Source of the DNA: an uncultured Blautia sp.
Lineage (GTDB): Bacteria; Bacillota; Clostridia; Lachnospirales; Lachnospiraceae
DNA: 64,000 bases
Direction: 5' to 3'
NCBI GenBank assembly: GCA_945864225.1
Contig: CAMBAL010000003.1
Span: 22,341-86,340 of the forward strand
In this document: positions 16,424-32,665 of the stretch, one piece after another
Layout of the letters: each line of letters begins with the position of its first letter
Position numbering within the stretch: the stretch's first letter is position 1
Notes under the pieces: generated by a model
Seen by the model: the letters and a program-made list of their open reading frames with translations, nothing else
Databases searched by the model: none
What the model was told of the DNA's origin: nothing
Translations under genes and position numbers: made by a program

Positions 16424-16565
16424 AACATTTTCAGGAATAAAATATTTTATTCTCAGACTTCATCGTTTTTTATCAGTCTTGAAGGAATATATTATTCAAG
16501 TTATTTCCAGCAGAGAATGTTGTACACTGAAAAGGAAAGAATAAAAGTCAGATTTTCATAAAAAA

Positions 16566-16609
16566 TAGTTGGAAAACAGAATTGTATTTTTGCCTTTTTC
16601 TTGTAAAAT
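16566..16609 (+). promoter_or_regulatory. Shared 26-bp element (copy A) and promoter of GH43-type gene
   Basis: The element begins TAGTTGGAAAACAGAATTGT at 16566 and ends in a T-run at 16591. TTGTAT (16582-16587) inside it and TAAAAT (16604-16609) form a promoter with 16-base spacing. Near-identical elements lie at 22710 and 25330 before two other glycoside hydrolase genes. Confidence 0.6.
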
Positions 16610-16645
16610 GTGTAACAAAGATTTCGTGAATTGGAGGAATTCAAA

Positions 16646-17704
16646 ATGTATGACGCGTTTTATCCCGGCAAAGTATGGCTGGATACCAATGGAAACCGCA
16701 TTCAGGCACATGGCGGTTCTGTGATGTATATTGACGGGACTTATTACTGGTACGGAGAAAACAAAGAAAAGACGACAGGAGATACGGATGTGTGGACCTG
16801 GGGTGTAAGATGTTATACATCCAAAGATCTTTATAACTGGGAGGATAAGGGATTGATTATTCAGCCGGATCTGGATCATCCGGAATCCTCGCTTCATCCG
16901 TCTGCCATGCTGGATCGGCCTCATATTATCTATAATGATACCACACGTAAATATGTCTGCTGGATGAAAATTATGCAGAAAGATGGTACACAGACAGAGA
17001 CTGTTATGACAGCAGATCAGATTCTTGGACCATATGAGATGGTACGGGAAGGTCTGCGTCCACTGAATATGAGTGCCGGGGATTTTGATCTTGTGGTGGC
17101 TCCGGACGGAAAAGGTTATTATTACTTTGAGAGAGTACATTCGGAGACTATCTGTGCAGATCTTACGGCGGATTATACAGATGTGACAGGGTATTACAGT
17201 ACACACTTTCCCCGTATCGCACCGCCGTATGTGAGGGAGGCTACTGCACATTTTTACAGAAATGGAAAGCATTACCTGCTTACATCCGGTACGACCGGAT
17301 ACCTGCCGAATCCGTCAGAAATTGCCGTAGCAGATACCTGGCACGGACCTTTTACGGTTCTCGGTAATCCTCATAGAAATGATCCGTCCAATACGTCTTT
17401 TCATTCCCAGGTTTCTTCCGTCTTTAAAGTGCCGGGGAAAAAAGATCTGTATATTGCCTGTGCAGACCGCTGGCTTCCTGAACTGATGGATCTGGAATAT
17501 GATACATATAAAAAAGTTTTTGAATTGATGTTCCATCCGGACGAAAAAGAACGGGAGAAAATCAAAACCATGGATCTGGGGCCAATGATGGATGTGAACA
17601 GAAATACTTCAATTGCGGATTATGTGTGGCTGCCTCTGAAATTTGATGGAGATATGGTCTACATCGACTGGCATGATGAGTGGAGGATTGAAGATTTCGA
17701 TTAG
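16646..17704 (+). CDS. Glycoside hydrolase, family 43-like beta-propeller
   Basis: Starting at ATG 16646 (GGAGGA seven bases upstream) the protein has 352 residues and no signal peptide, so it acts in the cytoplasm. It reads like the five-bladed beta-propeller of GH43: WLDTNGNRIQAHGGSVMYID and YYWYGENK at the start, TSKDLYNWEDKG, then SAMLDRPHIIYNDTTRKYVC, and SAGDFDLVVAPDGKGYYYFE. The AHGG...YWYGENK pattern is seen in galactan-acting subfamilies (exo-beta-1,3-galactanase-like, GH43_24/34 group), but substrate cannot be fixed by eye. It carries the shared promoter element, is followed by a bidirectional terminator, and faces an AraC regulator gene. Confidence 0.75.
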   Translation: MYDAFYPGKVWLDTNGNRIQAHGGSVMYIDGTYYWYGENKEKTTGDTDVWTWGVRCYTSKDLYNWEDKGLIIQPDLDHPESSLHPSAMLDRPHIIYNDTTRKYVCWMKIMQKDGTQTETVMTADQILGPYEMVREGLRPLNMSAGDFDLVVAPDGKGYYYFERVHSETICADLTADYTDVTGYYSTHFPRIAPPYVREATAHFYRNGKHYLLTSGTTGYLPNPSEIAVADTWHGPFTVLGNPHRNDPSNTSFHSQVSSVFKVPGKKDLYIACADRWLPELMDLEYDTYKKVFELMFHPDEKEREKIKTMDLGPMMDVNRNTSIADYVWLPLKFDGDMVYIDWHDEWRIEDFD

Positions 17705-17718
17705 AGAGATAGACAAAA

Positions 17719-17764
17719 AACCTGCAGTAATCAACGAATGATCATTTCCCGATTACTGCGGGTT
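17719..17764. terminator. Bidirectional terminator between GH43-type and AraC genes
   Basis: AACCTGCAGTAATC (17719-17732) pairs with GATTACTGCGGGTT (17751-17764). An A-run upstream and T residues downstream allow termination on both strands. Confidence 0.8.
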
Positions 17765-18948
17765 TACTTTTTGGAAAACTCATATTCCTGTGGTGTCATG
17801 CCTGTGACTTTTTTGAAGACACTGCAGAAATAGCTCTGGGAGGAGAAACAGAGCAATTCACCGATTGCAGCATTGCCAAGACCTTTACATTCCAGAAGAC
17901 GTTTCGCTTCTTCAATCTTGCACTCACGAATATAAGTAGATATGGTTTTTCCCGTGTTTGCTTTAAATTGAGTACAAAGGTAGGAACAGTTCATGTTCAG
18001 GTGAGCAGAGATAATTGAGGGAGTGATTTTTTCGTACAAATGGGAAAGGATAAAGCTGTTGACTCTGGACGTCAGCGGTGACTGACCGGGCATAGCTTTT
18101 AATTTGGCTACAAGGCTGGTATATTTGCGGAAAAAGTCTGCAAAAATCATAGAAAGATCAGTATTGGAAGAGGCTTTCATGATTTCGTCTATATAATGCC
18201 CGGAAAGGGTGTTGGCAAGGTTAAAATCAATTCCTTCTTCGATTGCTGCCCGGGATGCGAGCATATTGGCTCCGAGGATATAGCTGCGCTGCTGTTCAAT
18301 CGCGGAGGTGGATTTGAGTTCTGGGTAATGATCTGCAAAAAGGACATACTCGTTCATGATTTGATTGAGTTTTTCGACATTTCCGTGGTGGACACAGGAC
18401 ATCAGATTGTTCTCCAGCTGGTTTTCGTACGTTCCGTCAAGTTCTACAGAAGAATCAAAAACAGAAGGAAAAACCGTACTCCAGTGAAAGTCGAGGATTT
18501 CTACATGCCCGGGCTTTCTGGAATTCAAAATATAGTATAAAAGATTCAGATGCGCAATAAGTGAAGATGCATTACAGTTTGCATAATCACTGAAACTCCG
18601 CAGGAGAGAAGAAAGATCGCTGCGCTCTCTCCCGATACGCTGCAGAATACTTTCTGCCTGTTTCCTGGAGCAATTACTCATAAGAACCGGTCCTATGAAA
18701 AAGAGCCGGTTCTCTTTTTCTTCTTTCACTCCTCCGAAATACATATATTCCGGTGTAAAGCTGTACCAGACAGGCGGAAGATCATCAGGAAGGCAGCTTA
18801 CAAGAAGCATGGGAAGGTTAAAATCCTGGACATGGTGTGCGCCGCGGTCAATGAGATTTCTGCCTTCAAAACAGCTGATCGGAAGATGATTGGCTCGGTA
18901 AAAATTTTCAAGAAAAAAAGAAAGATCCATGGATGATTCGTTTAGCAT
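17764..18948 (-). CDS. AraC family transcriptional regulator
   Basis: The 394-residue protein ends with a typical AraC double helix-turn-helix: ITPSIISAHLNMNCSYLCTQ, FKANTGKTISTYIRECKIEE, AKRLLECKG and SVFKKVTGMTPQEYEFSKK (about residues 295-394). The N-terminal 290 residues contain no motif I recognise and probably sense a sugar or form dimers. The start ATG at 18946-18948 has GAGAGG nine bases upstream and a promoter at 18978-19006. Placed between a GH43-type gene and a sugar symporter gene, it is the best candidate for the factor that binds the 26-bp elements upstream of three glycosidase genes; this is an inference. Confidence 0.87.
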   Translation of the reverse strand: MLNESSMDLSFFLENFYRANHLPISCFEGRNLIDRGAHHVQDFNLPMLLVSCLPDDLPPVWYSFTPEYMYFGGVKEEKENRLFFIGPVLMSNCSRKQAESILQRIGRERSDLSSLLRSFSDYANCNASSLIAHLNLLYYILNSRKPGHVEILDFHWSTVFPSVFDSSVELDGTYENQLENNLMSCVHHGNVEKLNQIMNEYVLFADHYPELKSTSAIEQQRSYILGANMLASRAAIEEGIDFNLANTLSGHYIDEIMKASSNTDLSMIFADFFRKYTSLVAKLKAMPGQSPLTSRVNSFILSHLYEKITPSIISAHLNMNCSYLCTQFKANTGKTISTYIRECKIEEAKRLLECKGLGNAAIGELLCFSSQSYFCSVFKKVTGMTPQEYEFSKK

Positions 18949-18977
18949 GTTTTTATACCTCTCTGACAGATTTCTTT

Positions 18978-19006
18978 ATTATGATACCAGGATTTCGGAA
19001 GTACAA
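18978..19006 (-). promoter_or_regulatory. Promoter of the AraC regulator gene
   Basis: On the minus strand TTGTAC (19001-19006) and CATAAT (18978-18983) are 17 bases apart, 30 bases before the start codon. Confidence 0.55.
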
Positions 19007-19203
19007 AGTGCGGAGAAATCCGTGTATCAGAGGACAAAATACCTTTTGCCCCATCATCTTATGATGACGGACGGAAAAGTTTTTCTGCACATAAATAATA
19101 TAAATATATTAACATAAAACAAAATAAATTGATATATCAAGGGTGAAAAAAAGAATACAATGTGGTTACCAAAATAAAAAATACTAAAAGAAAGGTGAAG
19201 AAC

Positions 19204-20577
19204 ATGAAAAGAAAAGAAAGAAATCCAAAAGCAGTTGGCGCCGGACGCATGTTTGCATGGCAAAGCCGCGAAGTATCACAGGGATGCGCGCTGATGGCCG
19301 TTGGCTATGTGTCTATTTTCTGTACCGACACCCTTAAGATGGACCCGGCTCTTGTGGGTATTCTTCTGGTAATCAGTAAACTCCTGGATGGTTTCACAGA
19401 CATTATTGCAGGATTTATTATTGACCGGACGGACACGAAATGGGGACGCGGCAGACCTTATGAAGTCTGCATTATCGGGATGTGGATCAGTACATGGCTG
19501 ATGTTTACCTGTCCTCCGTCACTGAGTACACCGGTCAAATGTATCTGGGTACTGTTTACTTATGCCCTGATCAACAGTGTGTTTTATACATTTCTTACCG
19601 CCAATAATACGGTCTATATGGTTCGTGCTTTCCGTTACAATGAACAGCATGTGGCAATCAGTTCTTACGGCGGAATTATCAGTATGCTGGGTGTGGTTGT
19701 ATTTAATGTACTGTTTCCGATGTGCGTGGACAAAATGGCTACAGATGCTTCCGGTTGGAGCAGACTGATTGCTATGATCGGAATTCCACTTGCCCTCATT
19801 GGCATGCTCCGTTTCTTTTTTATCAAAGAAACCGTTGATGTTGATGTGAAAAATGAAAAGGGCGAAAAAGAGAAGGTAAACTTTAAAGATGTAAAAAAGG
19901 TACTGACTGGAAACAAATATATTTACATGGTTGCTCTTGTTCTTTTTGTAGCAAATTTTGTCACTAACATGGGTGTTAATGTTTATTATTTCAGATATGT
20001 GGCAAAAAATCTGTCTCTTCTGGGAATTGTAAGTGCCGCACAGATTATTGGAATTCCTGCGGTAATCTTTTTTCCGAAAATCATCAATCGCTTTTCCACT
20101 TCCAAGCTGATCTGTGCCGGCTGTATTCTGAGTGCGGCAGGATATGCGCTGAACTTTTTTGCAGGGGGAAATACCGTGATGCTTGCAGTGGCTGCTATCA
20201 TTTACGGTGTGGGAGGTGTTCCGGTATCCATGCTTTATCGTCTGATGATTATCGAGTGCGCAGACTATAACGAGTGGAAAGGAATGCAGCGTATGGAAGG
20301 AACCCTCGGATGCGTGACCGGATTTGCCACAAAAGTCGGGGCATCCATAGGCGCAGGTGTATTGGGAATCCTTTTGACAGCGTCCGGTTATGTTGGTGAT
20401 GCAGCAGCAATTCCCGGCAGTGCACTTTTGATGATCCGGTGTCTGTTCAGTGTCATTCCGGCTGCTTTATGGCTGCTGGTAGCCTTAAGCCTTCTTCTGT
20501 ATAAACTGGACAGATTGATGCCGCAGATCAAAGCGGATAATGAAGCAAGAAGAGCTCTGGTCAATAGTCAGAAATAG
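19204..20577 (+). CDS. GPH-family sugar:cation symporter (MFS)
   Basis: The 457-residue membrane protein starts at ATG 19204 with AAAGGTG upstream. It has the glycoside-pentoside-hexuronide family layout: GRMFAWQSREVSQGC at the start, DIIAGFIIDRTDTKWGRGRP (the GPH D-x-x-x-D and WGR(F/G)RP motif) near residue 75, MYRLMIIECADYNEWK-type text near 355, and a charged C-terminus. Members carry di- and oligosaccharides or uronides with H+ or Na+. It is followed at 75 bases by the hydrolase gene at 20653, likely in one operon, and should bring a glycan fragment into the cell for the neighbouring enzymes. Confidence 0.88.
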   Translation: MKRKERNPKAVGAGRMFAWQSREVSQGCALMAVGYVSIFCTDTLKMDPALVGILLVISKLLDGFTDIIAGFIIDRTDTKWGRGRPYEVCIIGMWISTWLMFTCPPSLSTPVKCIWVLFTYALINSVFYTFLTANNTVYMVRAFRYNEQHVAISSYGGIISMLGVVVFNVLFPMCVDKMATDASGWSRLIAMIGIPLALIGMLRFFFIKETVDVDVKNEKGEKEKVNFKDVKKVLTGNKYIYMVALVLFVANFVTNMGVNVYYFRYVAKNLSLLGIVSAAQIIGIPAVIFFPKIINRFSTSKLICAGCILSAAGYALNFFAGGNTVMLAVAAIIYGVGGVPVSMLYRLMIIECADYNEWKGMQRMEGTLGCVTGFATKVGASIGAGVLGILLTASGYVGDAAAIPGSALLMIRCLFSVIPAALWLLVALSLLLYKLDRLMPQIKADNEARRALVNSQK

Positions 20578-20652
20578 GTACAGACAGAGAAATAAAAGAG
20601 ATGATCTGCAAAAACAAAACCGCAGTTTAAAATAAAAATGAGGAGAGAGGAT

Positions 20653-22674
20653 ATGGAATATACGTTATACCGTCCGGAAGAAGATGCTTATTTTAAAGAA
20701 CCCTATATTGATACGGAAGAATGGAGAGATGCACCGGTCAGACATTATTTTGTCCACGGCGGGTTCCGCGGGACAGAAAAAAACGGTACGGAAGTCAGAT
20801 TTTGTTTCTATTTCCCGGAAAAAGAAAAATATGAAGGCCGTTTTTTTCAGTATGTATCCCCGGCTCCGGAAGATGAACACGAAAGTGAGCATCTGACAGG
20901 GGAAGATGATAAGATCAGCTTTGCGCTGACTCATGGTGCTTATTATGTTGTGACGAATCAGGGGGGAATGATTTTTGATGATCCGCAGCGGCTTTACAGA
21001 TCCAGTTCCAATGGAGCGGTATTCAGCAGAAAGGTGGCAAACCGTATATATGGTTATGAGCATCGCCCCTATGGATATATTTTTGGAGGCAGCGGCGGCA
21101 GCTTTAAAACCATGAGCTGTATGGAAATGACAGAAGGCGTATGGGACGGAGCTGTTCCATATGTACTTGCGAATCCGATGGCGGCCCCCAATGTATTTGC
21201 ACCGAGAGTACGGGCTATGCGCCTGCTTGGTGAAGAAGGGCTGAAAAAAGTCGTAGATGCCATGGAGCCGGGCGGAAGCGGTAATATTTATGAAGGTCTG
21301 GATCATTTCCAAAGAGAAGCCCTGGAAGAGTCGACCAAAATGGGATTTCCGAAACGCGGCTGGTTTTCCTGGCCCACCATGGGAGACGGTGCACTGATGG
21401 TACTGGTTCCGTATATTTACAGTATCTTTCCGGAATACTTCCGGGATTTCTGGACAAAACCGGGATATGAGGGGGCGGATCCAAACAGCAGTGCGGCCAG
21501 GGATCGGGTGCAGTTTGTGACAACAGTAAGTGAACTGATCAGCAGAAAAACACCCGGTGAGGACGGGGAGTTTACCAGCGTTGATAACAGCTGGCAGAAT
21601 ACTTTGCTTGGAAATAAAGAAACGCCAATGATTCGCGTATCAGAACTCCCGCCTGAAGACAGTTACCTATTTCACTGCCGTTTGAAAGTTATGGATGGTG
21701 ATGCCGTTGGAAAAGAAACAGCAATTGATAAGATTGAAGATGGTGTGATTACCGTAAGTACTGTGTTTGACGGATCCAATATGGGGAATATACTGGAAGG
21801 ATTAAAACCGGGAGATCACATAATGCTCGATAACAGTGATTATCTGGCTATGCAGACCTTCCACCATCATCAGATTCCTGATGCAAGCTATAAAGTTTAT
21901 GACCAGTTCCGCGACCATGATGGAAATCCAATCTATCCTCAGCTTCCTGTCCTGATTGCGCCGATTATTGCTCAGAACGGAGGAGGCTCTGTTCCGGAAG
22001 GACATATTCATGGGAAAATGATCGCACTCTGCAGTATTCTGGATGAAAGTGCCTGTGCATGGCATGGGGACTGGTATCGTGAAATGGTAAGAAAGAATTC
22101 CGGAATGAAAGAGGAGGATTGCTTCCGGCTGTATTATAATGACAATTGTATCCATGATGACAGGGCAGGTGTACTGGATGATCCGCAGCATCAGATCGAT
22201 TATCTGGGAATACTCCATCAGGCACTTCTGGATGTGGCAGACTGGTGTGAAAAAGGCATTGCGCCGGTACCCACAACCAGCTATGTTTTGAAAGACGGAC
22301 AGATCGAAGTTCCGGAAACAGCCGCAGAAAGGGGCGGGCTTCAGCCGGTCGTGCATGCATTTGCAAACGGGAAAAAGGCGGTTCGGGTAAAAACCGGAGA
22401 AGAAGTAGAATTTACTGCTGATATTGCAGTACCGCCGAATACGGGAAGTGTGACATTTGCAGCGTGGGATTTTGAAAAGACAAACGATTTCAGTCATGGA
22501 GAAACACTGGTGATGCAGGAAGATGGCAGTGCAAAAATACATTCTGTTCACAGCTTTGATAAACCAGGCAGCTATTTCCCTGTCCTGAAAGTGAAAAGCA
22601 GCCGAAAAGGATGTCTGGAGGATATATTCGTACAGTGTAAAAATCTGGACAGAGTACGGGTTATTGTAGAATAA
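20653..22674 (+). CDS. Putative alpha/beta-hydrolase with C-terminal beta-sandwich, family unclear
   Basis: The true start is probably ATG 20653, as AGGAGAGAGG lies just before it; the in-frame ATG at 20638 precedes this site. The 673-residue protein has no signal peptide. GGSGGSFKTMS near residues 145-155 is a nucleophile elbow (Ser147 likely), preceded by ALTHGAYYVVTNQGG. FRLYYNDNCIHDDRAG followed by QIDYLGILHQALLDVADW (about 490-535) may hold acid and later residues. The last 100 residues (VKTGEEVEFTADIAVPPNTG...KPGSYFPVLKV) look like a PKD-type beta-sandwich. The fold resembles large tannase/feruloyl-esterase-like hydrolases, but I cannot name the family. In this locus it may remove acyl groups from imported sugars. 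Confidence 0.6.
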   Translation: MEYTLYRPEEDAYFKEPYIDTEEWRDAPVRHYFVHGGFRGTEKNGTEVRFCFYFPEKEKYEGRFFQYVSPAPEDEHESEHLTGEDDKISFALTHGAYYVVTNQGGMIFDDPQRLYRSSSNGAVFSRKVANRIYGYEHRPYGYIFGGSGGSFKTMSCMEMTEGVWDGAVPYVLANPMAAPNVFAPRVRAMRLLGEEGLKKVVDAMEPGGSGNIYEGLDHFQREALEESTKMGFPKRGWFSWPTMGDGALMVLVPYIYSIFPEYFRDFWTKPGYEGADPNSSAARDRVQFVTTVSELISRKTPGEDGEFTSVDNSWQNTLLGNKETPMIRVSELPPEDSYLFHCRLKVMDGDAVGKETAIDKIEDGVITVSTVFDGSNMGNILEGLKPGDHIMLDNSDYLAMQTFHHHQIPDASYKVYDQFRDHDGNPIYPQLPVLIAPIIAQNGGGSVPEGHIHGKMIALCSILDESACAWHGDWYREMVRKNSGMKEEDCFRLYYNDNCIHDDRAGVLDDPQHQIDYLGILHQALLDVADWCEKGIAPVPTTSYVLKDGQIEVPETAAERGGLQPVVHAFANGKKAVRVKTGEEVEFTADIAVPPNTGSVTFAAWDFEKTNDFSHGETLVMQEDGSAKIHSVHSFDKPGSYFPVLKVKSSRKGCLEDIFVQCKNLDRVRVIVE

Positions 22675-22709
22675 GTATTGTGCTGTATTGGTCGTTTTTT
22701 TAATAGTTT

Positions 22710-22754
22710 TAGTCAGAAAACAATATCGCTTTTTTTCGTGATCCGGGTTATATT
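22710..22754 (+). promoter_or_regulatory. Shared 26-bp element (copy C) and promoter of GH3 gene
   Basis: The element begins TAGTCAGAAAACAATATCGC at 22710 and continues into a T-run, matching copies at 16566 and 25330. TATATT (22749-22754) is a likely -10 box. The GH3 start codon is 33 bases further on. Confidence 0.55.
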
Positions 22755-22787
22755 GCACATAATTAAGGATAATATGGAGGGTATATC

Positions 22788-25187
22788 ATGGAGAAATATC
22801 TGGATAAAACACTTTCTCCGAAAGCGCGCGCGGCAGATCTTTTGGAAAAAATGAGTATAGAGGAAAAAATGGCTCAGGTGAACTGCCTTTTTCCCTGGGG
22901 CGATAACTGGGAAATGCTGAAAGAAGCGGCAAAACACGGTATCGGACAGGTGAGTACCCTGGAGGTACGTGAAATCAGAACGCTGGAGGAAGCGGCGCAG
23001 TGGCAGCGTAAAATACAGAAGATGGTAATGGAAAACAGCGAACATCATATTCCCGCAATTTTTCATATGGAGGGACTGTGCGGACCCTTTATCCAGGATT
23101 CCACCAGTTTCCCTTCAGGCATCAGCCGTGGCTCTTCCTGGGATCCGGAGCTTGAAGAAAAGGTAGGGAAAGTCGTGGCCAGACAGGAACTTGCCTGCGG
23201 AATTACTCAGGTACTGGCACCGGTTCTGGATATTTCCAGAGATTCCAGAATGGGACGCCAGGGGGAAACGTATGGAGAAGATCCAACGCTTGCGGCTGCT
23301 CTTGGAAGCGCATATGTGAAAGGAATCCAGACACAGGAGACAGCCGGACGCAGGGCTGAATCTGTGGCAAAGCATTTTCTGGGATTCCATAATTCTCAGG
23401 GAGGGATTCATGGAGCGAACTGCGATATTGGTGGCAGACTTCTCGATGAAGTATATGGAAAACCGTTTCAGGCAGCGATCAAAGAGGAGAATATGAGAGG
23501 AATCATGCCCTGCTACTGTTCTATTAACGGGGAACCTGTTTCTGCATCCAAAAAGGTTCTTACAGGTCTTCTGCGAGAGGAGATGGGCTTTGACGGAATC
23601 TGCGTTTCTGATTATGGAGCAGTGGGAAATGTTCACAATGTCCAGAAGGTGGGCGAGAGTGTAACGGAAGCAGGACTCTTGTGTATGGATGCCGGAATGG
23701 ATGTGGAAATGCAGAACTGCACCGGTTTCAATGAAGAACTGGAGGAATGGTTCCGCACGGGAAAAGCAGATATTGCGATTTTGGATCAGGCTGTCAAAAG
23801 AGTTTTGGAAGCAAAATTCCGTATGGGGCTTTTTGAACATCCCTATGCACTGGATGGAGAAAATTTAAAGAGAGTTTTTCTGAATGAAGAAGATGAGAAA
23901 GTGACTCTTCAGTCTGCGCTGGAATCACTGATCCTACTGAAAAATAACGGGGCATTGCCATTGAAAAAAGAAGTGAAAAGGATAGCCTTGGTCGGATGCC
24001 ATGCTGCAAATGCCAGAAGCTTTTTCGGCGGATACACTCATCTGAGTATGGTGGAAGCAGTACATGCGGTGGCAAATTCCATTGCCGGAATGGAGTCCGG
24101 AACAGTAGGGGAAAAGAAAATGGTCACCGTTCCGGGAACGCAGATCCAGAGCGATGAAACAGAGGAATTTGATGAGATATTGAGACATCAGAAATCTCAG
24201 TGCAGAAGTCTTCTGGAAGAACTTCGGGCGAAGCTTCCTGATGTAGAAATCACATACGCCTATGGATATCCCATTGCCGGTGACGATCTGTCACATATTG
24301 AGGAAGCATTGGAAACAGTAAAGAATGCGGATGTTGTGATTATGACTCTTGGAGGCAAACATGGTTCCTGTTCTGTAGCTTCCATGGGAGAAGGAGTGGA
24401 CGGAACAGATATCAATCTGCCGGTGTGTCAGGACACATTTATCCGGCGTGCTGCGGAGCTTGGTAAACCGATGATCGGAGTTCATTTTAACGGGCGTCCT
24501 ATTTCCAGCGATACAGCAGATGAATATCTGGATGCCATACTGGAAGCATGGAATCCATCAGAAGCCGGAGCAGAGGCGATTGTAAAAGTTCTTCTCGGTG
24601 AATATAATCCGGGCGGTAAGCTTCCGGTATGTGTGGCACGTAATTCTGGTCAGCTTCCAGTATATTATAATCATCCCAATGGTTCCGCATGGCATCAGGG
24701 TGACAGTATTGGCTTCAAAAATTATGTTGATATGTCTCATACTCCAAGATATTTCTTTGGTTATGGACTTTCTTATACGGAGTTTTCCTATTCGGATCTG
24801 AAGCTGGATAAGAAAGAAATTTCTCCGGACGAAGCAGTGAAAATTGCGGTGACTGTTGAAAATACCGGTTCATGTGTAGGTGACGAAGTGGTGCAGATGT
24901 ATTTCTGTGATCCTTATGCAAGCCAGACCCGTCCGGTAAAAGAACTGGCAGGATTTAAGCGTATCCATCTGGAAGCAGGGGAGAAAAAAACACTGGTATT
25001 TACCATGCAGGCAAGCCAGACGGCATTCCTTGACCGCAATATGAATTGGAAAATTGAGAAAGGAGAAATCCGGATCCAGGTGGGAAGTTCCTCTGAGGAC
25101 ATCCGGTTGGAGGACAGCTTCCATATCACGGATAACAGGATCATAGAGGGGCGGAGCAGGGCATTTTACGCAAAGGTGGAAATCTAA
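22788..25187 (+). CDS. Glycoside hydrolase family 3 enzyme, usual domain order
   Basis: The 799-residue cytoplasmic enzyme has the standard GH3 order. The barrel carries IPAIFHMEGLCGPFIQDSTS, VLAPVLDISRDSRMGRQGET, AESVAKHFLGF and FDGICVSDYGAVGN, in which Asp275 is the expected nucleophile. The alpha/beta sandwich follows (LKNNGALPLKKEVKRIALVG, GGKHGSCSVASMGEGVDG), then a fibronectin-III-like domain (DEVVQMYFCDPYASQTRPVK). Family members release terminal beta-linked glucose, xylose or arabinose; the text is closest to beta-glucosidase/beta-xylosidase groups. RBS GGAGGG precedes ATG 22788. It has its own promoter with the shared element and ends in a long terminator hairpin. Confidence 0.9.
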   Translation: MEKYLDKTLSPKARAADLLEKMSIEEKMAQVNCLFPWGDNWEMLKEAAKHGIGQVSTLEVREIRTLEEAAQWQRKIQKMVMENSEHHIPAIFHMEGLCGPFIQDSTSFPSGISRGSSWDPELEEKVGKVVARQELACGITQVLAPVLDISRDSRMGRQGETYGEDPTLAAALGSAYVKGIQTQETAGRRAESVAKHFLGFHNSQGGIHGANCDIGGRLLDEVYGKPFQAAIKEENMRGIMPCYCSINGEPVSASKKVLTGLLREEMGFDGICVSDYGAVGNVHNVQKVGESVTEAGLLCMDAGMDVEMQNCTGFNEELEEWFRTGKADIAILDQAVKRVLEAKFRMGLFEHPYALDGENLKRVFLNEEDEKVTLQSALESLILLKNNGALPLKKEVKRIALVGCHAANARSFFGGYTHLSMVEAVHAVANSIAGMESGTVGEKKMVTVPGTQIQSDETEEFDEILRHQKSQCRSLLEELRAKLPDVEITYAYGYPIAGDDLSHIEEALETVKNADVVIMTLGGKHGSCSVASMGEGVDGTDINLPVCQDTFIRRAAELGKPMIGVHFNGRPISSDTADEYLDAILEAWNPSEAGAEAIVKVLLGEYNPGGKLPVCVARNSGQLPVYYNHPNGSAWHQGDSIGFKNYVDMSHTPRYFFGYGLSYTEFSYSDLKLDKKEISPDEAVKIAVTVENTGSCVGDEVVQMYFCDPYASQTRPVKELAGFKRIHLEAGEKKTLVFTMQASQTAFLDRNMNWKIEKGEIRIQVGSSSEDIRLEDSFHITDNRIIEGRSRAFYAKVEI

Positions 25188-25207
25188 CAGACTTGATTTA
25201 GTATGAC

Positions 25208-25305
25208 AATTCCTGAACTCTTGCCGTTGTAGTGAATAACAGGCATAAACATCTGAACGCCAGATTTTTCACTATGACGGCAATTGAGTCAGGAATTATT
25301 TTTTT
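25208..25305 (+). terminator. Long terminator hairpin after GH3 gene
   Basis: The arm at 25208-25236 (starting AATTCCTGAACTC) and the arm at 25268-25297 (ending GTCAGGAATT) pair over about 29 bp with few mismatches, followed by a run of T residues to 25305. Confidence 0.8.
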
Positions 25306-25329
25306 GAAAAGTCGGTTTTTTGATAATTA

Positions 25330-25374
25330 TAGTTGGAAAATAATATTGTACTTTTCTATGGATTCCCTTATGGT
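25330..25374 (+). promoter_or_regulatory. Shared 26-bp element (copy B) and promoter of DUF5060 gene
   Basis: The element begins TAGTTGGAAAATAATATTGT at 25330. TTGTAC (25346-25351) and TATGGT (25369-25374) are 17 bases apart. Copies A (16566) and C (22710) share 18 or more of 26 positions. Confidence 0.6.
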
Positions 25375-25440
25375 AAAAAAGAAAAAGTGTCATAAAACAT
25401 AGAAAACAGAAAAGTAACAGGAACGGGAGGAGAATATGCT

Positions 25441-26973
25441 ATGCTTCAGTATCAAAGATTTGAATTAACATTTCACGGAGAGGAACCGGCAGGTTCTCAG
25501 TCGGAAATTAATCTGAAGGCTGTGTTTACCTGTGGTGGAACAGAAAAAGAAGTATCGGGATTTTATGCGGGAAACGGCACTTATATTGTACGTTATCTGC
25601 CGCAGCAGACAGGGCTCGTACAGTGGAAAATCAGTGGGCTGTTTACAGCAGAGGGACAGGAAGAATGCATTCCCTGCGAAGATGGAATACATCATGGTTT
25701 GGTGAAACCGTGCGGAACAGCTCTACGGTATGAAGATGGTACAGACTGTCGTCCTTTTGGAACTACAGTATATGCTATGATGCACCAGCCGAGAGAACTG
25801 ATTGACCAGACAATTGAAACAATCCTGGAATCTCCTTTTGATAAAGTGCGGACCTGTGTGTTCCCGAAGCACTATATTTTTAATGAAAATGAACCGGAAC
25901 TGTTTGCCTTTGAGAAGAGGGAAGATGGTGGGTTTGATTTCCATCGTCCGTGTTTTGCTTTCTGGGATGCTTTCGAAAAGATGCTCGGGATAATGGAGGA
26001 ACATCAGGTGCAGGTGGATCTGATTCTGTTTCATCCCTATGACTGCTGGGGATTTTCAAAAATGACAAAAGCAGAATATCTTCCGTATCTGAATTATCTG
26101 ATCGCCAGATTTTCCTCATTTTCCAATGTGTGGTGGAGTCTTGCCAATGAGTATGACTGTATGACAGCGTTTAAAAAAGAGGACTGGGACTGTATTGATC
26201 AGTTTATCAGCAGTAAGGACGTTTACGGTCATATGCTGAGTTGTCATCACATGTTGGAAATCTATGATTTTTCAAAAGAAAACGTGACCCATTGCTCGAT
26301 TCAGGGAGATGTGACAGCAGTGGAAAAACTTATGAATACCTATCACAAACCGGTGCTGATGGATGAGTTTGGGTATGAAGGAAATATTTTTTGTCATTGG
26401 GGACACTTATCCGGATTTGAACTGGTTCATCGTTTCTGGCTCTGCTGCGTGCAGGGAGGATATGGAACCCATGGGGAAACATTTATGAATCCTACAGATA
26501 CACTCTGGTGGGGAAAAGGCGGAAAACTGGTCGGAAAATCTCCTGCAAGAATCGGATTTTTAAAGAACATTATTAACGAACTTCCGGGGGCTTTAGAGCC
26601 GGTTCCGTCTGATTTTGTGACCGTGGAAACACTGGAAGAGATGCGCAGGGGACTTCGCCAGGACGAACAGACTGATTTCACCCGTGCGGTTCTGAAGCTT
26701 CCGCCTGAAGAAGCCGTGCGCATTCTGGAAAATATAACAAAAGACACCAGAATTTATACCGGTCATTGCGGGGACGACGCATATCTTGCCTATTATGGAA
26801 GGCATTGTACTGCTGTTGGAGAACTGGAGCTTCCGGAAACTGGAGAATACCGTATCGAAGTGATCGATGTCTGGGAAATGACGAGAGAGACCATCCTGAC
26901 AGGAGTAAATGGAAAAGCAGAGTTTACTCTTCCCGGCAAAGAAGGAATCGCAGTGCTGGCAGTGAAACAGTGA
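25441..26973 (+). CDS. DUF5060/DUF4038/DUF5605-type glycoside hydrolase
   Basis: The 510-residue protein starts at ATG 25441 with GGGAGGAG eight bases upstream; another ATG at 25436 is out of frame. Residues about 1-85 form a beta-sandwich (RFELTFHGEEP, GNGTYIVRYLPQQTG) like DUF5060. A TIM barrel follows from about 95 (DGTDCRPFGTTVYAMMHQPR), with WWSLANEYDC (Glu237, likely acid/base) and KPVLMDEFGYEG (Glu309, likely nucleophile). The last 80 residues form a beta domain resembling DUF5605. It belongs to the GH-A clan-like group that includes apiosidase-type enzymes. There is no signal peptide, so it acts on imported oligosaccharides. It carries the shared promoter element. Confidence 0.72.
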   Translation: MLQYQRFELTFHGEEPAGSQSEINLKAVFTCGGTEKEVSGFYAGNGTYIVRYLPQQTGLVQWKISGLFTAEGQEECIPCEDGIHHGLVKPCGTALRYEDGTDCRPFGTTVYAMMHQPRELIDQTIETILESPFDKVRTCVFPKHYIFNENEPELFAFEKREDGGFDFHRPCFAFWDAFEKMLGIMEEHQVQVDLILFHPYDCWGFSKMTKAEYLPYLNYLIARFSSFSNVWWSLANEYDCMTAFKKEDWDCIDQFISSKDVYGHMLSCHHMLEIYDFSKENVTHCSIQGDVTAVEKLMNTYHKPVLMDEFGYEGNIFCHWGHLSGFELVHRFWLCCVQGGYGTHGETFMNPTDTLWWGKGGKLVGKSPARIGFLKNIINELPGALEPVPSDFVTVETLEEMRRGLRQDEQTDFTRAVLKLPPEEAVRILENITKDTRIYTGHCGDDAYLAYYGRHCTAVGELELPETGEYRIEVIDVWEMTRETILTGVNGKAEFTLPGKEGIAVLAVKQ

Positions 26974-27064
26974 GATGTTACCAGAAAACAGTAATGTGAG
27001 ATCATGATTATTTGCAGAAGTTGACAGGAAATATTGCATTCCTGTTATGAAGCATATGATACAA

Positions 27065-27119
27065 GGGTCAAAAGGTCATGTGTTTCATGCTTGCATGAAA
27101 AAACATGACCTTTTGACCC
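27065..27119. repeat. Perfect 17-bp stem hairpin with nested inner stem
   Basis: GGGTCAAAAGGTCATGT (27065-27081) pairs perfectly with ACATGACCTTTTGACCC (27103-27119), and inside it TTTCATGC pairs with GCATGAAA. No T-run follows on the plus strand. It lies between the DUF5060 gene and the sensor kinase. It looks like a REP-type palindromic repeat or a strong mRNA-stabilising hairpin. Confidence 0.75.
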
Positions 27120-27168
27120 CATCATCAAGCATATATGATCATGTAAAAACGGATCATGGTGATAAAAT

Positions 27169-28923
27169 ATGAAAAAGAAATCCAATATCGGGTATTGCGC
27201 TGAAGAGCCGGCACGGCAGAAAATGATCAGCCTGAAGCGTCAGATTGTTGGTGCCACATGGTTTTTTATCATTGTAGTGGCGCTTCTTCTGTTTACATTT
27301 TTGATCAGTATGATCAGCTCTTACCAGAAAAAAGCAGATGAAAAACGTTCAAAAGATATGATTGCCTATGCAGAAACTCTGGAAAACAATCTTACAGAGC
27401 TTCGGGATGTCACAGGTGAAATATATTCACAAAACAGTGCATTTGATGGAATCAATGTCTATCCGTCAGCTGCAGAAAAATGGAATAATGTATATGATCT
27501 TTTGAACGTTCTGCATATTCAGGTGAAATCCAATAAAGGAATTGCGGGACTCTTTCTCTATTGTGATTCCTTTGACTGGGTGCAGTATGCAGTGAATGAG
27601 AAGATGTCTTTTACAGATAAAGAGGCACTGAAAAAAGCAGGGGAAGCAGCACTGAAAAATAATGATGGAGTGTATATTACATTTCCTCTGTTTACGGAAA
27701 AAGATACCTGGTACAGTGTTTATATGAAAAAAGCTTCGGCTGCTGTCGGCGGATGTATCCAGCTGAGCCAGGGGCTGCCGGAGGAAAAAGAACAGACAGC
27801 CGTTTATGGTGTGATCTCTGAGGGTCAGCTGTATGAAACCTGGTCAGGTGACAGTTCAGTGAAAGATATAGAGAATGAAACACTCATCAGTAGTGACCAG
27901 ATCAGTCAGCTCCTTCCGGGGGAGAATCATATAGACGGCAAAGTGATTTATCTTCATCAGTTGAATTCAGATGACCTGGCAGTCGTGGAAATTCTGCCGG
28001 AAAGCATCTGGCTGTATATCGACAAAATACATGCAGTGCTGATGATACTGATCATTTTATTCTTTCTGGCAGCCTTCCGGCTGCAGCAGTTTGTATATTA
28101 TGAACTGTCCAGACCGCTGGAGGATATGTCAGGAGCTCTTGAAAATATTCAGGCAGGAGTGTGGGAGGTTCATTTCTCCGCATCGAACAGAATTTCAGAG
28201 ATTGAAGATGTGCGGCAGTCGGTAAAAACATTGCTGGCGGAAATCGAGCAGTACAAGATTCGGTTTTATGAAGAAGAACTGGAAAAAGCCAAAATACACA
28301 GACAGTATCTGCAGCTTCAGCTGGCACCGCATTTTTACACCAATTGCCTGAAAAATGCCTATTATATGCTCGCTCTGAAAGAGTATGACAATGCGGAGAT
28401 TTTTTTACAGCGTCTTTCCGTTCATCTGCGTTATTTATTGCAGAAGGACGCAGCATTTGTCACAGTGGAGCAGGAACTTGATTTTGTAGAAAACTATGTG
28501 GATATGCAGAAACTGATGACCAGCAAATCTCTTTCATGCAGAATTTCAGCAGATGAGGAAGTTATGCATAAAGAAATACCAATTCTCACACTGCAGACTT
28601 TTGTGGAAAACTCCGTGAAGTATGCCCGGGATGCCAAAGGAAGCCAGCTTCTGATCGAAATTTGTATAAAGCTGCGCAAAACGGAAGATGGAAATTATCT
28701 GGATATTACAGTTCGGGATAATGGACAGGGATATCCCCAGGAACTGCTGGATGCAGTCAATCAGCAAAACCCGATTGAAAAAGAAGGACTGGGTGTAGGG
28801 ATTATCAATCTGCAGAAACGTATCCAGATTTTTTATGGTGATAATGCAAGCTGGTATTTTGAAAATGGTGATGGAGCAGTCAGTGAGCTGGTTCTGCCGG
28901 AAAAATCGGAGGTGAGGGAATGA
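27169..28923 (+). CDS. YesM-type sensor histidine kinase
   Basis: The 584-residue kinase has a transmembrane helix near residues 28-52 (WFFIIVVALLLFTFLISMI), an extracellular sensor region, a second helix near 287-308 (HAVLMILIILFFLAAFRLQQ), a HAMP-like stretch, and a His_kinase/HATPase part. The phospho-accepting histidine is His388 in QLQLAPHFYTNCLKNAYY, a variant of the usual NPHFLYN. The N box is VENSVKYAR, and DNGQGYP and GLGVGIINLQKRI form the ATP site. It should sense an extracellular sugar or polymer and phosphorylate the response regulator whose gene overlaps its stop by four bases (ATGA). The pair probably controls the adjacent ABC importer. Confidence 0.9.
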   Translation: MKKKSNIGYCAEEPARQKMISLKRQIVGATWFFIIVVALLLFTFLISMISSYQKKADEKRSKDMIAYAETLENNLTELRDVTGEIYSQNSAFDGINVYPSAAEKWNNVYDLLNVLHIQVKSNKGIAGLFLYCDSFDWVQYAVNEKMSFTDKEALKKAGEAALKNNDGVYITFPLFTEKDTWYSVYMKKASAAVGGCIQLSQGLPEEKEQTAVYGVISEGQLYETWSGDSSVKDIENETLISSDQISQLLPGENHIDGKVIYLHQLNSDDLAVVEILPESIWLYIDKIHAVLMILIILFFLAAFRLQQFVYYELSRPLEDMSGALENIQAGVWEVHFSASNRISEIEDVRQSVKTLLAEIEQYKIRFYEEELEKAKIHRQYLQLQLAPHFYTNCLKNAYYMLALKEYDNAEIFLQRLSVHLRYLLQKDAAFVTVEQELDFVENYVDMQKLMTSKSLSCRISADEEVMHKEIPILTLQTFVENSVKYARDAKGSQLLIEICIKLRKTEDGNYLDITVRDNGQGYPQELLDAVNQQNPIEKEGLGVGIINLQKRIQIFYGDNASWYFENGDGAVSELVLPEKSEVRE

Positions 28924-30029
28924 AAGTATTAATCGTAGATGATCAGGAAAAAATTCTCGAAGCGACCAGAAAATTGGTGGATTGGGAGCGGCTTCATGTA
29001 GATGAAGTGTATACGGCAGACAGTGCTGCGGCAGCGAAGCAGATATTGGCTCAGCATCCGGTAGATATTATGCTGACAGATATTGAGATGCCGGAGGAGG
29101 ACGGACTTTCTCTGCAGAAATGGCTGACAGAGAATTATCCTCTGGTATACTGTATTTTTCTCACTTCTCATGCTGATTTTTCCTATGCAAAAGAGGCAAT
29201 CAGAGGAGGCGCATTTGATTATATTCTGCAGCCGGCCAGTATATCTGAAATTGAAGATACTATTGAACGATGTATGGAAAAGCTGAAGCAGAGAACAGAT
29301 ATGATCCGTAAAACAAATCGTTATGATCAAATGACAGAAAAGGCTGAATATCCGGAGGAGAGAAAACCGGACAGTGTCCGATGGGGAAAATGGCTGATTC
29401 GCGGAGATTACGCTCTTGTGCGAAATCAGATCACCAACCTGCTTAGATTGGCAGATCAGGATGGATATCTGACCATTAGCTACAGGCAGCACATGATACA
29501 TGCTTTTCTGGAATCCTGTTCTGTAGCCTGTTATGAGAAAAAAATAGAACTTCAGAAATTATTTACTGAGGATTTTACATATGAAGATATGCTTGGCAGT
29601 TATCATACGGATGAAGAACTGCAGGATGGAGTGGAGCGGCTTCTTTTCATTTTTGCAAAAGAAGTATCGGAATCCGAGGGACGCGAGGAAAGTTCCTATA
29701 CCGTTCAGGAGCGGATCAGAGAGGTAGTGCGTTATCTTGAGGAGAATATGGATCAGATGGTGAGCAGAAGGGAAGCGGCAAAATTTGTTTTTCTCAATGA
29801 AGACTATTTTTCCAGGATGTTTCGTAAAGAAACAGGTATGGGATTCAAAGAATATCAACTGAAGATAAAAATGGATTATGCCGGAAAACTGCTTTCGAAT
29901 ACGACCATGCCGGTAACCCTGATTGCGTCAAAAGCAGGCTACGAGAATTTTACAAATTTTTCTCAGATGTTCAGGAAAGTCATGGGAGTTACACCGACAG
30001 AATATCGGAAAATAAATGCAAAACTATAA
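28920..30029 (+). CDS. YesN-type response regulator with AraC DNA-binding domain
   Basis: The 369-residue protein begins with a receiver domain (KVLIVDDQEKILEATRKLVD, phospho-acceptor Asp54 in MLTDIEMPEEDG, FLTSHADFSYAKEA) and ends with an AraC helix-turn-helix pair (EENMDQMVSRREAAKFVFLN, DYFSRMFRKETGMGFKEYQ, TLIASKAGYENFTNFSQMFR) from about residue 270. Its start overlaps the kinase stop, a sign of translational coupling. It most likely activates the downstream binding protein and permease genes, and perhaps the glycosidase genes. Confidence 0.92.
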   Translation: MKVLIVDDQEKILEATRKLVDWERLHVDEVYTADSAAAAKQILAQHPVDIMLTDIEMPEEDGLSLQKWLTENYPLVYCIFLTSHADFSYAKEAIRGGAFDYILQPASISEIEDTIERCMEKLKQRTDMIRKTNRYDQMTEKAEYPEERKPDSVRWGKWLIRGDYALVRNQITNLLRLADQDGYLTISYRQHMIHAFLESCSVACYEKKIELQKLFTEDFTYEDMLGSYHTDEELQDGVERLLFIFAKEVSESEGREESSYTVQERIREVVRYLEENMDQMVSRREAAKFVFLNEDYFSRMFRKETGMGFKEYQLKIKMDYAGKLLSNTTMPVTLIASKAGYENFTNFSQMFRKVMGVTPTEYRKINAKL

Positions 30030-30144
30030 CGGAGAAGTCGGGAAACTGATAATCCGGGTCGCAAAACAGCTATTTTTTAAGTGCTGTCAAAGGTAAACTA
30101 TAGTCATCAAATAAATCGTACCGAAACGAAAGGAGAAAAGGTGT

Positions 30145-31605
30145 ATGAAGAAAAAAGTTTTTGCAGGCGTATTGACTGCAGCAATGATGGCTGGAATGAT
30201 GGCTCCGGCAGCTGTATCCGCAGATGAAATGACAACTCTTTCCCTGTGGATCCCGACACTGGCAACTTATACAGATGATGCGGTTGCGAAGGTAGAAGGA
30301 AAGATTAATGAGTACATGGGAGACAAATACGGTATTCAGGTTGATCTGGAATATGTGGAGATTGGTAATTTTGAACAGGCGGTCAATCTGGCAATGACAA
30401 CGGATGAGGTGGATGTAACATGTTATTTTACAGGTGAAGGTCAGCTTTCTACTTATGTGAATAACGGACAGCTTCTGGATATCACTGATTATTTTGAAAA
30501 TGCTTCTGAAGAATTGAAAAATACATTTACAGATGTGGAAATCGCGGCATCCAGTATGAACGGACGAATGTATGGTCTGGTTCGTAAATATCAGTATGGC
30601 GGACATGCAGTAGTCGTTATGAACAAAGATATCGTAGAAGAGATGAAGATTGATGCTGCATCCATTACAACTATGGATCAGTTAGAAGAAGTATTGTATC
30701 AGGTACACGAGAAGTATCCGGACATCTATACCATGGTTCCACAGAGCACATCGGAGATGACATGGGCATGGGCTCAGGTTTGTGACAGAGGAATTGGACT
30801 TACCAATTATGCTTATGCAGACTGGGGTACTACAGAATTAAAGAGTCTTTTTGAAAGTGAAGGATTTGCTGAGTTCTGTTCATATACTAACAAATGGTAT
30901 AACGATGGACTGATTATGTCTGATGCACTCAGCAATACAATGGAGGGAAGTTCCATGGTAACTGCAGGTTCTGCATTCTGCTGCTTCCATAATGGGGATG
31001 TGGAACCACTGGATAAGATTTATCCAAATACAGTAGAAAGCGGACTTTTTGCACCGGCACGTGCGGAATCTACAGGCATTGGAAACCTGCAGTATGGCAT
31101 CAGCGCAAACAGCGCACATCCGGAGGAAGCGTTTACTCTTCTTGGTGCTATGTATACAGATCCTGAATTTGCGACACTTCTGGCTTATGGTATTGAAGGA
31201 GAGCACTATGTGATCAATGACAAGGGCCGTGCAGAATATCCGGAAGGCATGACTGCAGAAAATGAGCCTTATGGCGGATTTGCAGCAACAGCCACATATG
31301 CGGATTTCCTGATTCTCCCTGTAAAAGAAACTGCGCTGTATGATGATGCAAAGGCAACAGTTGAAGAGTGGGATGCAAATGTAGAGGTTTCTCCTGCATT
31401 CGGATTTTTCTATGATACAAGTGAACTGACCGATTTTGTAACAGCTTATTCCAATCTTGAAAGCAAATACAAAGATGCTCTTATGACAGGAAGTGTAGCC
31501 CTGGATGATGTTCTTCCTCAGATTAAATCTGAACTGGAATCTATTGGCTTCTATGATGTACTGGCTGATACACAGGCGGCACTGGATGAATATCTGGCAA
31601 ATTAA
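30145..31605 (+). CDS. Extracellular sugar-binding protein of ABC importer
   Basis: The 486-residue protein has a Sec signal peptide (MKKKVFAGVLTAAMMAGMMA, cleavage after AVSA) and no lipobox cysteine, which is unusual because Gram-positive binding proteins are normally lipoproteins. The body (LSLWIPTLATYTDDAVAKVE, VDVTCYFTGEGQLSTYVNNG, GNLQYGISANSAHPEEAFTL) fits solute-binding family 1 proteins that partner LplB/LplC permeases and take oligosaccharides. RBS AAAGGAG precedes ATG 30145. A terminator-like hairpin pair follows, probably lowering expression of the permeases relative to the binding protein. Control by the YesM/YesN pair just upstream is likely. Confidence 0.88.
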   Translation: MKKKVFAGVLTAAMMAGMMAPAAVSADEMTTLSLWIPTLATYTDDAVAKVEGKINEYMGDKYGIQVDLEYVEIGNFEQAVNLAMTTDEVDVTCYFTGEGQLSTYVNNGQLLDITDYFENASEELKNTFTDVEIAASSMNGRMYGLVRKYQYGGHAVVVMNKDIVEEMKIDAASITTMDQLEEVLYQVHEKYPDIYTMVPQSTSEMTWAWAQVCDRGIGLTNYAYADWGTTELKSLFESEGFAEFCSYTNKWYNDGLIMSDALSNTMEGSSMVTAGSAFCCFHNGDVEPLDKIYPNTVESGLFAPARAESTGIGNLQYGISANSAHPEEAFTLLGAMYTDPEFATLLAYGIEGEHYVINDKGRAEYPEGMTAENEPYGGFAATATYADFLILPVKETALYDDAKATVEEWDANVEVSPAFGFFYDTSELTDFVTAYSNLESKYKDALMTGSVALDDVLPQIKSELESIGFYDVLADTQAALDEYLAN

Positions 31606-31623: not shown

Positions 31624-31655
31624 GGCGGCGGGTGCAGTCCCTGCCGCCGTTTTTT
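31624..31655 (+). terminator. GC-rich terminator after binding-protein gene
   Basis: GGCGGCGGG (31624-31632) pairs with CCCTGCCGCC, followed by six T residues. As it lies inside the transporter operon it probably gives partial termination. Confidence 0.8.
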
Positions 31656-31712: not shown

Positions 31713-32648
31713 GTGGAAGCAGTTGTGAAGCAAAAAAAGATGAAAAAAAAAGGCAATTGGAAAAATGTTTTACGTCACTGGGAATTATATGCGATGATGC
31801 TGCCTGGATTTATTTATTTGTTTATTAATAATTATATTCCCATGGCCGGTCTGGTTGTAGCGTTTAAAAAATATAACTATAAAGATGGTATCTGGGGCAG
31901 TGACTGGGCAGGTCTGAGTAATTTTAAATTTCTTTTCAGTACCAGAGATGCCTGGCTGATGATTCGAAATACTCTTGGATATAATATTGTGTTTATTGTA
32001 ACAGGTACCGTATTTGCAATTGCAGTAGCAATTATTCTTAATGAAATCCGTGGAACGCTTTCGAAAAAAGTATATCAGACATTTATATTAATTCCGTACC
32101 TGATTTCCATGGTAGTAGTCAGCTATATTGTATTTGCTTTTTTAAGTTCAGACAGTGGTTTTATCAATAAAACTTTTGGCACCAACATCAACTGGTATAT
32201 GAATGCAAAATATTGGCCTTTCATTTTTGTAATTGTAAATCTGTGGAAGAGTTTTGGATATAACAGCATTATTTATTATGCAACAGTCATTGGAATTGAC
32301 ACCTCATTATACGAGGCAGCTGTTGTGGATGGCGCTTCCAGATGGCAGAGAATCTGGCATGTAACGCTGCCGGGGCTTCGTCCGACCATTATCACACTGA
32401 CACTGCTTGCCATCGGCCGTGTATTCTATTCTGACTTTGGTCTGTTTTATCAGGTGCCGCAGAACTCAGGTCTTTTGTATGACGTAACAACTACCATTGA
32501 TGTGTATGTATATAAAGGACTGATGCTTCTGAATGATGTGGGACGTTCCGCTGCGGCAGGTTTCTTCCAGTCCATCTGCGGATTTATCCTGGTACTGACG
32601 GCTAATCTGGTTGTAAATAAAATTGATAAAGACAACGCTTTGTTCTAA
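31713..32648 (+). CDS. ABC sugar importer permease, LplB type
   Basis: The 311-residue protein starts at GTG 31713, four bases after AAAGGAGG. After a basic N-terminus it has about six transmembrane helices. FIYLFINNYIPMAGLVVAFK and GLSNFKFLFS at the start are typical of LplB. The permease coupling loop EAAVVDGASRWQRIWHVTLP lies near residue 207. With the next permease it forms the channel for oligosaccharide uptake; the shared ATPase (MsmK-like) is not encoded here. It is co-transcribed with its neighbours, being 108 bases after the binding-protein gene and 17 bases before the second permease gene. Confidence 0.92.
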   Translation: MEAVVKQKKMKKKGNWKNVLRHWELYAMMLPGFIYLFINNYIPMAGLVVAFKKYNYKDGIWGSDWAGLSNFKFLFSTRDAWLMIRNTLGYNIVFIVTGTVFAIAVAIILNEIRGTLSKKVYQTFILIPYLISMVVVSYIVFAFLSSDSGFINKTFGTNINWYMNAKYWPFIFVIVNLWKSFGYNSIIYYATVIGIDTSLYEAAVVDGASRWQRIWHVTLPGLRPTIITLTLLAIGRVFYSDFGLFYQVPQNSGLLYDVTTTIDVYVYKGLMLLNDVGRSAAAGFFQSICGFILVLTANLVVNKIDKDNALF

Positions 32649-32665
32649 GAAAGGGGGATAAACAG

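Follow-up and report, generated by a model that had tools for sequence, protein, structure and literature searches.

We analysed a 64,000-nucleotide stretch of DNA from an uncultured Blautia sp. (assembly GCA_945864225.1, contig CAMBAL010000003.1, positions 22,341 to 86,340 of the forward strand; hereafter the window), in which four promoters carry the same kind of two-part candidate operator. Three of these promoters precede separately placed enzyme genes on the + strand, namely a GH43-family glycoside hydrolase gene (16646..17704, 352 amino acids, PF04616), a GH3-family glycoside hydrolase gene (22788..25187, 799 amino acids, PF00933, PF01915 and PF14310) and a DUF5060 / apiosidase-like / DUF5605 gene (25441..26973, 510 amino acids). 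The fourth precedes the solute-binding protein gene of an ABC (ATP-binding cassette) importer (30145..31605, + strand, SBP_bac_1 and DUF3502), and we propose all four genes as members of one regulon. Judging from the sequence, the elements are probably operators to which the product of the YesN-type response regulator gene at 28920..30029 (+ strand) binds; it would activate both the importer and the enzyme units.

A preliminary description of this DNA had reported a 26-bp element in front of the three enzyme genes, and its coordinates were exact. The elements TAGTTGGAAAACAGAATTGTATTTTT, TAGTCAGAAAACAATATCGCTTTTTT and TAGTTGGAAAATAATATTGTACTTTT lie at 16566-16591, 22710-22735 and 25330-25355, respectively, and 17 of their 26 columns are invariant. 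We compared the 150-bp regions upstream of the GH43, GH3 and DUF5060 genes with no prior position given, and the best three-way ungapped match was found at the same three positions. Dinucleotide-preserving shuffles gave a mean of 11.6 and a maximum of 13 invariant columns, and none of the 150 reached 17. Widening the element to 44 bp gave 24 invariant columns, compared to a shuffle maximum of 18 (0 of 150 as good). Since the position-free comparison regains the same places, above shuffles, the three-element observation stands. The distance from element to start codon, given earlier as 33-86 bases, is 52-85 bases from the element end to the starts at 16646, 22788 and 25441. If as many as two mismatches are allowed, the core TAGTNNGAAAANAATAT has 55 matches in the genome compared to 97 for the reversed control, so that this AT-rich core alone is useless as a search query.

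The 26-bp element is real, but it covers just one half, the promoter-proximal one, of a longer unit. All three enzyme promoters have a second half-site, (A/G)GTC, at a distance of exactly 21 bp upstream of the element's GT(C/T). The GH43 operator (16544..16585, + strand, E 8e-8) has the distal half AGTCAG at 16546 and the proximal half AGTTGGAAAA at 16567. In the GH3 operator (22688..22729, + strand, E 1.4e-10) the halves are GGTCGT at 22690 and AGTCAGAAAA at 22711, and in the DUF5060 operator (25308..25349, + strand, E 6.9e-9) they are AGTCGG at 25310 and AGTTGGAAAA at 25331. When 18 sites of the window and its relatives were aligned, the GTC of the distal half and the GT and AAA of the proximal half were invariant. 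The self-match of the distal half over these sites peaks at a shift of 21 (0.54; the mean for shifts 8-39 is 0.29). The score for a -10 is highest at offset 58, counted from where the distal half starts (3.31, compared to a mean of 1.46 and a standard deviation of 0.44). The -10-like hexamer is at offset 58 in 14 of the 18 sites and at 59 in the other four, which are the GH3 and DUF5060 sites of the window and of the relative L057. In the window the hexamers are TAAAAT for GH43 (16604..16609, offset 58), TATATT for GH3 (22749..22754, offset 59), TATGGT for DUF5060 (25369..25374, offset 59) and TAAACT for the importer (30094..30099, offset 58), all on the + strand.

Class II operators of the AraC/XylS family consist of half-sites in direct repeat with a spacing of two turns or about 21 bp, the proximal one abutting or overlapping the -35 region. 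Both the spacing of about 21 bp and a -35-abutting proximal half with a fixed -10 were found here. Each operator consists of two direct-repeat half-sites with the core (A/G)GT(C/T)(A/G)(G), 21 bp or two helical turns apart. The proximal one is followed by AAA(A) and runs into the -35 region, and the -10 hexamer comes 58-59 bp after the point where the distal half starts. By eye, the enzyme promoters have TTGTAT, TCGCTT and TTGTAC as the -35 region, at the end of the proximal half and 17 bases upstream of the -10, and nothing resembling a -35 is visible in the importer promoter. A consensus promoter scan gave 38 matches compared to 40.3 expected, and none of the proposed -35/-10 pairs reached its threshold. 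This is as expected of activator-dependent promoters, and we take it as weak evidence for such promoters. Two operators are overlapped by promoter-scan matches, at 25304 and 25320 (twice) on the + strand and at 30052 on the minus strand, and another start point is possible at those operators.

The preliminary description had found no clear copy of the element upstream of either the symporter or the ABC importer. For the importer this was wrong. The two-half-site pattern reveals a fourth operator there (30034..30075, + strand, E 8e-16), in a second form, with the distal half AGTCGG at 30036 and the proximal half GGTCGCAAAA at 30057 instead of TAGTTGGAAAA. For the symporter the observation was right, as the two-half pattern has no match there; the nearest single-element matrix match, at 19151 on the minus strand, scores 12.8 compared to 33.9-35.1 for the real elements. 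Orthologous importer promoters are close to a 21-bp tandem repeat, AGTCGGAAAA...GGTCGGAAAA, and the identity between the two halves is 11 to 14 of 21 at binding-protein and permease sites and 6 to 8 at enzyme sites. The genome search that had been suggested earlier was made on the 2.67-Mb assembly (84% complete) with a sequence-only model of the 18 sites, scoring 150 of 977 first-look candidates. It gave four strong matches, all of them in this locus, with E from 8e-16 to 8e-8, and the next match had an E of only 0.155. Plasmid records had no match to positions 16400-30100.

In order to compare promoters of orthologous loci, which had also been suggested, we took as relatives DUF5060 orthologues with 73-93% identity and their flanks (L057 to L064). 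The gene order of L057 is almost the same as that of the window. The loci L058-L061, L063 and L064 contain genes for YesM, YesN, the binding protein and two permeases together with some of GH3, GH43, DUF5060 and GH106, and the fragment L062, of 4.2 kb, carries GH3, DUF5060 and GH43. The two-half-site pattern matches 16 places in 967 kb of sequence (both strands of the window and of 24 relative loci), all of them on the + strand, where block shuffles give about 2 expected. Four of them are in the window, three are in L057, one is before the binding-protein gene in each of L058, L059, L060, L061, L063, L064 and L079, and L063 and L064 have a second one before the first permease gene. A matrix adds sites before the binding-protein gene in L073 and L078. 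These last two and L079 come from records not labelled Blautia, and their YesN has 59-61% identity. In L073 and L078 the yesMN genes are downstream of the importer genes and the operator is still before the binding-protein gene, so the operator is not simply a marker of the yesN end. The small regulon of the preliminary description is therefore well supported, both by the four strong genome matches and by this recurrence before orthologous units.

As candidates for the binder, the AraC-family regulator at 17764..18948 (minus strand, with an AraC-type helix-turn-helix, HTH) and the YesN-type regulator, which combines a receiver with an AraC-type HTH, had both been named. The layout around the latter is that of a YesMN system with its importer: a YesM-type sensor histidine kinase gene (27169..28923, + strand, PF06580 and PF02518) and the yesN gene adjoin the binding-protein gene and two downstream permease genes (31713..33553, + strand, PF00528 twice). 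We surveyed 64 genomes of the genus for sites at E<1e-4, YesN orthologues at E<=1e-60 (scoring at most 31 candidates in each genome) and AraC orthologues at E<=1e-40. Stricter filters applied for more than 40 genomes, and weak sites may have been lost. There were 19 site matches, in nine genomes, and the YesN orthologue occurred in exactly the same nine, compared to two of the 64 for the AraC orthologue. In the fetched loci that bear operators, YesN was present in 12 of 13 and the AraC orthologue in one of 13, with one additional match of 26%; the LysR and sigma-like proteins were found in none of the 13. The thirteenth locus, without YesN, is a short G249 contig; in that genome YesN is encoded on a different one. 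Among the four proteins that were compared (LysR, AraC, YesN and the sigma-like protein), YesN is the sole DNA-binding protein that is shared, and for this reason we favour it. The HTH helices of YesN (LNEDYFSRMFRKE and N(F/Y)TNF(S/T)Q.F(R/K)K), which we take to be recognition helices, are nearly identical in 12 orthologue rows and differ in AraC. A scan of nine open reading frames in four loci found other AraC-type regulators in L058 and L061 and a second response regulator in L063, and L138 has a 24% AraC match.

Beyond the genus, a family-wide search of 397 genomes (12 candidates scored per genome) gave matches at E<=0.001 in six genomes, of which only our own was strong; the match in L246 resembles coding sequence by eye. 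We also looked at other importers of the same kind in the genus. There are 99 places encoding DUF3502 in 28 of the 64 genomes, and 75 upstream stretches were taken; the 24 places left out comprise nine of our own importer group and 15 others, including several short frames and contig ends. A YesN-like HTH is encoded upstream in 14 of the 75 stretches. In a scan of seven of these, made without a shuffle control, a 21-bp spacing ranked best or joint best in three, with weak matches.

Several observations weigh against assigning all four sites to YesN. The YesM, YesN and importer genes travel together, and co-occurrence alone cannot separate YesN from its linked partners. Seven of the nine site-bearing genomes supplied training sites, so that the positive count is partly circular; G249 and G252, which supplied none, have site scores of 45.7 to 53.1 bits. 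We also scored the window with a matrix derived from 11 binding-protein and permease-promoter sites of other genomes only. At a width of 44 bp, in favour of YesN, the importer, DUF5060, GH43 and GH3 operators took ranks 1, 2, 4 and 8 of 127,914, respectively. The results were less favourable at 33 bp (ranks 1, 2, 12 and 13) and at 68 bp (ranks 1, 103, 2 and 4), and the 11 training sites had originally been found via patterns and matrices derived from the window. The reverse comparison, with a matrix of the three enzyme sites, put the importer site above 12 bits in three of the ten loci that have one, namely L060 and L063, where it ranked first, and L058, where it ranked second; in the other seven it did not exceed 12 bits. 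Judged by their sequences, the enzyme sites are a recognisable but weaker and distinct sub-form. Moreover, enzyme-form sites at E<1e-4 occur only in G000 and G228, and these are precisely the two genomes with the AraC orthologue.

This last observation, together with the position of its gene between the GH43 gene and the others and its AraC-type HTH, speaks for the AraC-family regulator at 17764-18948 as the binder of the three enzyme promoters, which would leave YesN at most the importer. We nevertheless consider this quite unlikely. With an orthologue in two of the 64 genomes compared to strong sites in nine, AraC does not follow the sites as a whole, although it is less firmly excluded for the enzyme sub-form, whose strong sites are in the same two genomes with a weaker one in G239. 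The G239 site, upstream of GH43, has 26/38 identity to the GH43 operator of the window and 24/38 to the DUF5060 operator (0 of 200 shuffles as good for each), and this genome has YesN, lacks the AraC orthologue and encodes a different AraC-family protein nearby (L058:15187). On the other hand, this one site is all that represents the enzyme form without an AraC orthologue, its E in the genus search is only 0.071, and the importer operator matches the same upstream region at 18/38, which 156 of 200 shuffles equalled. The enzyme and importer sites also share the half-site core, the 21-bp spacing and the -10 distance even though the HTH helices of AraC and YesN differ, and the gap that separates araC from the divergent symporter gene showed no tandem site in either the window or L057. 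Given the G239 counter-example, YesN stays our best candidate binder at the enzyme sites too, though we are less sure of it there than at the importer. It is doubtful that a YesN-like paralogue or an unlinked AraC-family protein binds the enzyme sub-form and the local YesN only the importer form. The low scores of the enzyme sites with the importer-trained matrix, as a sub-class of their own, would agree with such a binder. So would a look-alike in G458, a genome of another genus (L249:1777, G458:C66), which has the 21-bp spacing and TATAAT at the expected place before a GH3 gene of 995 amino acids. There, no YesN orthologue was found at E<=1e-70 (five candidates scored per genome), which also counts against YesN itself, and other YesN-like proteins gave 21 matched stretches at E<=1e-10. 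However, both forms are alike in core, spacing and -10 distance, the enzyme-form sites found in the genus are in genomes with the local type of YesN (G000, G228 and G239), and no separate site was found for enzymes inside the importer run. The elements are also A/T-rich and touch the -35 region, and the 55 genome matches of the core are below the 97 of its reversed control, as might be expected if the match were a general promoter feature (A-tract or UP-element, -35 context). We rejected this highly improbable reading on the invariant distal GTC and proximal GT, 21 bp apart in 18 sites, on there being only four strong matches in the genome, and on the 55 of the 64 genus genomes having no site at E<1e-4.

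With YesN as the binder, and by analogy with AraC/XylS-family and YesMN systems, we infer the following course of binding, phosphorylation and activation in response to a glycan signal. The YesM kinase would sense a glycan fragment outside the cell and phosphorylate YesN. Two YesN subunits would then bind next to each other along one face of the helix and contact RNA polymerase where the -35 of the promoter is poor. In this way YesN would switch on the importer (the binding protein and two permeases) together with the separately placed GH43, GH3 and DUF5060 genes.

The distribution of sites bears on how such a regulon would be arranged. Where the enzyme genes stand shortly after the permease genes (L059, L061, L063 and L064), no separate enzyme site was found. 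Enzymes that stand apart have their own sites: the three in the window, the GH43 gene of G228 (L133:4291), and GH3 and DUF5060 in L057. The GH43-GH3 pair of G239 has its site before GH43, at L134:6331, and L060 has a weak site at 556, before another GH43 gene that heads a run of enzyme genes. The two GH43 sites of G228 and G239 and the site at 556 were in no training set. A tentative reading, which we regard as nearly as likely to hold as to fail, is that the operator tracks transcription units rather than genes. Enzymes inside the importer run would share the one operator before the binding protein, and each unit that stands apart would have gained a 21-bp tandem operator of its own, in a distinct, possibly graded sub-form, so that one sensor would set uptake and each enzyme at different strengths. 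If true, one group of YesN-type regulators would have a DNA code that can be read.

The operator fits a known kind of switch, as tandem-repeat sites had been predicted earlier for such regulators, and it gives one YesN group a concrete candidate operator. In the parts of the reports available to us, Clostridium cellulolyticum has 12 two-component pairs with AraC-like regulators, 11 of them flanked by importer and carbohydrate-enzyme genes (PMC3572039). The Caldicellulosiruptor systems BxgRS, AviRS, MosSQ and AxuRS have predicted tandem-repeat sites with large spacers, a periodicity of 21 or 32 bp being a search setting, and in three of five such systems sites upstream of promoter elements were read as activator sites (PMC8579813). 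As in our locus, a regulator with an AraC-type domain is beside a CUT1 ABC importer with tandem-repeat sites; unlike in that other organism, as far as described, three separate enzyme genes carry sites here as well, and the likeness rests on layout and not on sequence words (PMC8579813). XydS/R of C. cellulolyticum is likewise a two-component system with an AraC-type regulator; it controls genes for glycan degradation, and its truncated regulator bound upstream DNA in gel shifts (PMC3572039). In the sections of that report at hand, no consensus operator is defined, and the common sequences of its Table 3 do not contain the present motif (PMC3572039). The XuaDSR system of Ruminiclostridium cellulolyticum is similar in that a single system controls both an ABC importer close by and a xylanase gene far away; its authors state, in the portion available, that conserved binding sites could not be identified, whereas candidate sites are given here (PMC12175519). 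For the Streptococcus pneumoniae YesN, a regulator of the same name and type, the available text gives no clear repeat motif and reports the ccdA-1/msrAB2 operon as the main target (PMC11034029). We did not find the present motif in the literature searched (text only, without figures and supplements). YesN-type regulators are numerous in these genomes, and the related literature, in the parts at hand, reports undefined or predicted sites. With a conserved 42-bp candidate operator and a named candidate binder at hand, gel-shift or reporter tests become straightforward, and the importer, the DUF5060 hydrolase, GH43 and GH3 could be tied to one glycan through their co-regulation.

Some further features of the locus were noted. 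A second operator lies between the binding-protein and first permease genes in four places (L063:5443, L064:4589, G252:C95:4704 and G249:C236:7100). In the window, the same gap has a strong terminator-like hairpin at 31624-31648 (8 G-C pairs, then GTTTTTT); none was detected by the same terminator scan in the L063 and L058 gaps. Internal terminators at this place have been reported, in the part of the paper available, to set importer stoichiometry (PMC9045158). The second operator is perhaps another way to set the ratio of binding protein to permeases. Between the symporter and GH3 genes, a protein of 678 amino acids is encoded at 20638-22674, matching nothing in Pfam or NCBIfam at E<=0.001, and it is adjacent to a symporter in several relatives too. 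A GH3 protein with permuted domains is encoded at 35965-38664, its C-terminal GH3 domain being at residues 31-283 and its N-terminal domain at 660-890. Between the DUF5060 and yesM genes there is a 55-bp palindrome with 17-base arms (27065-27119), and this insert is absent from the matching gap of L057. Its first 25 bases have nine copies in the genome with up to three mismatches, including the one at 27065, compared to none for the reversed control, and the palindrome looks like a small dispersed hairpin repeat.

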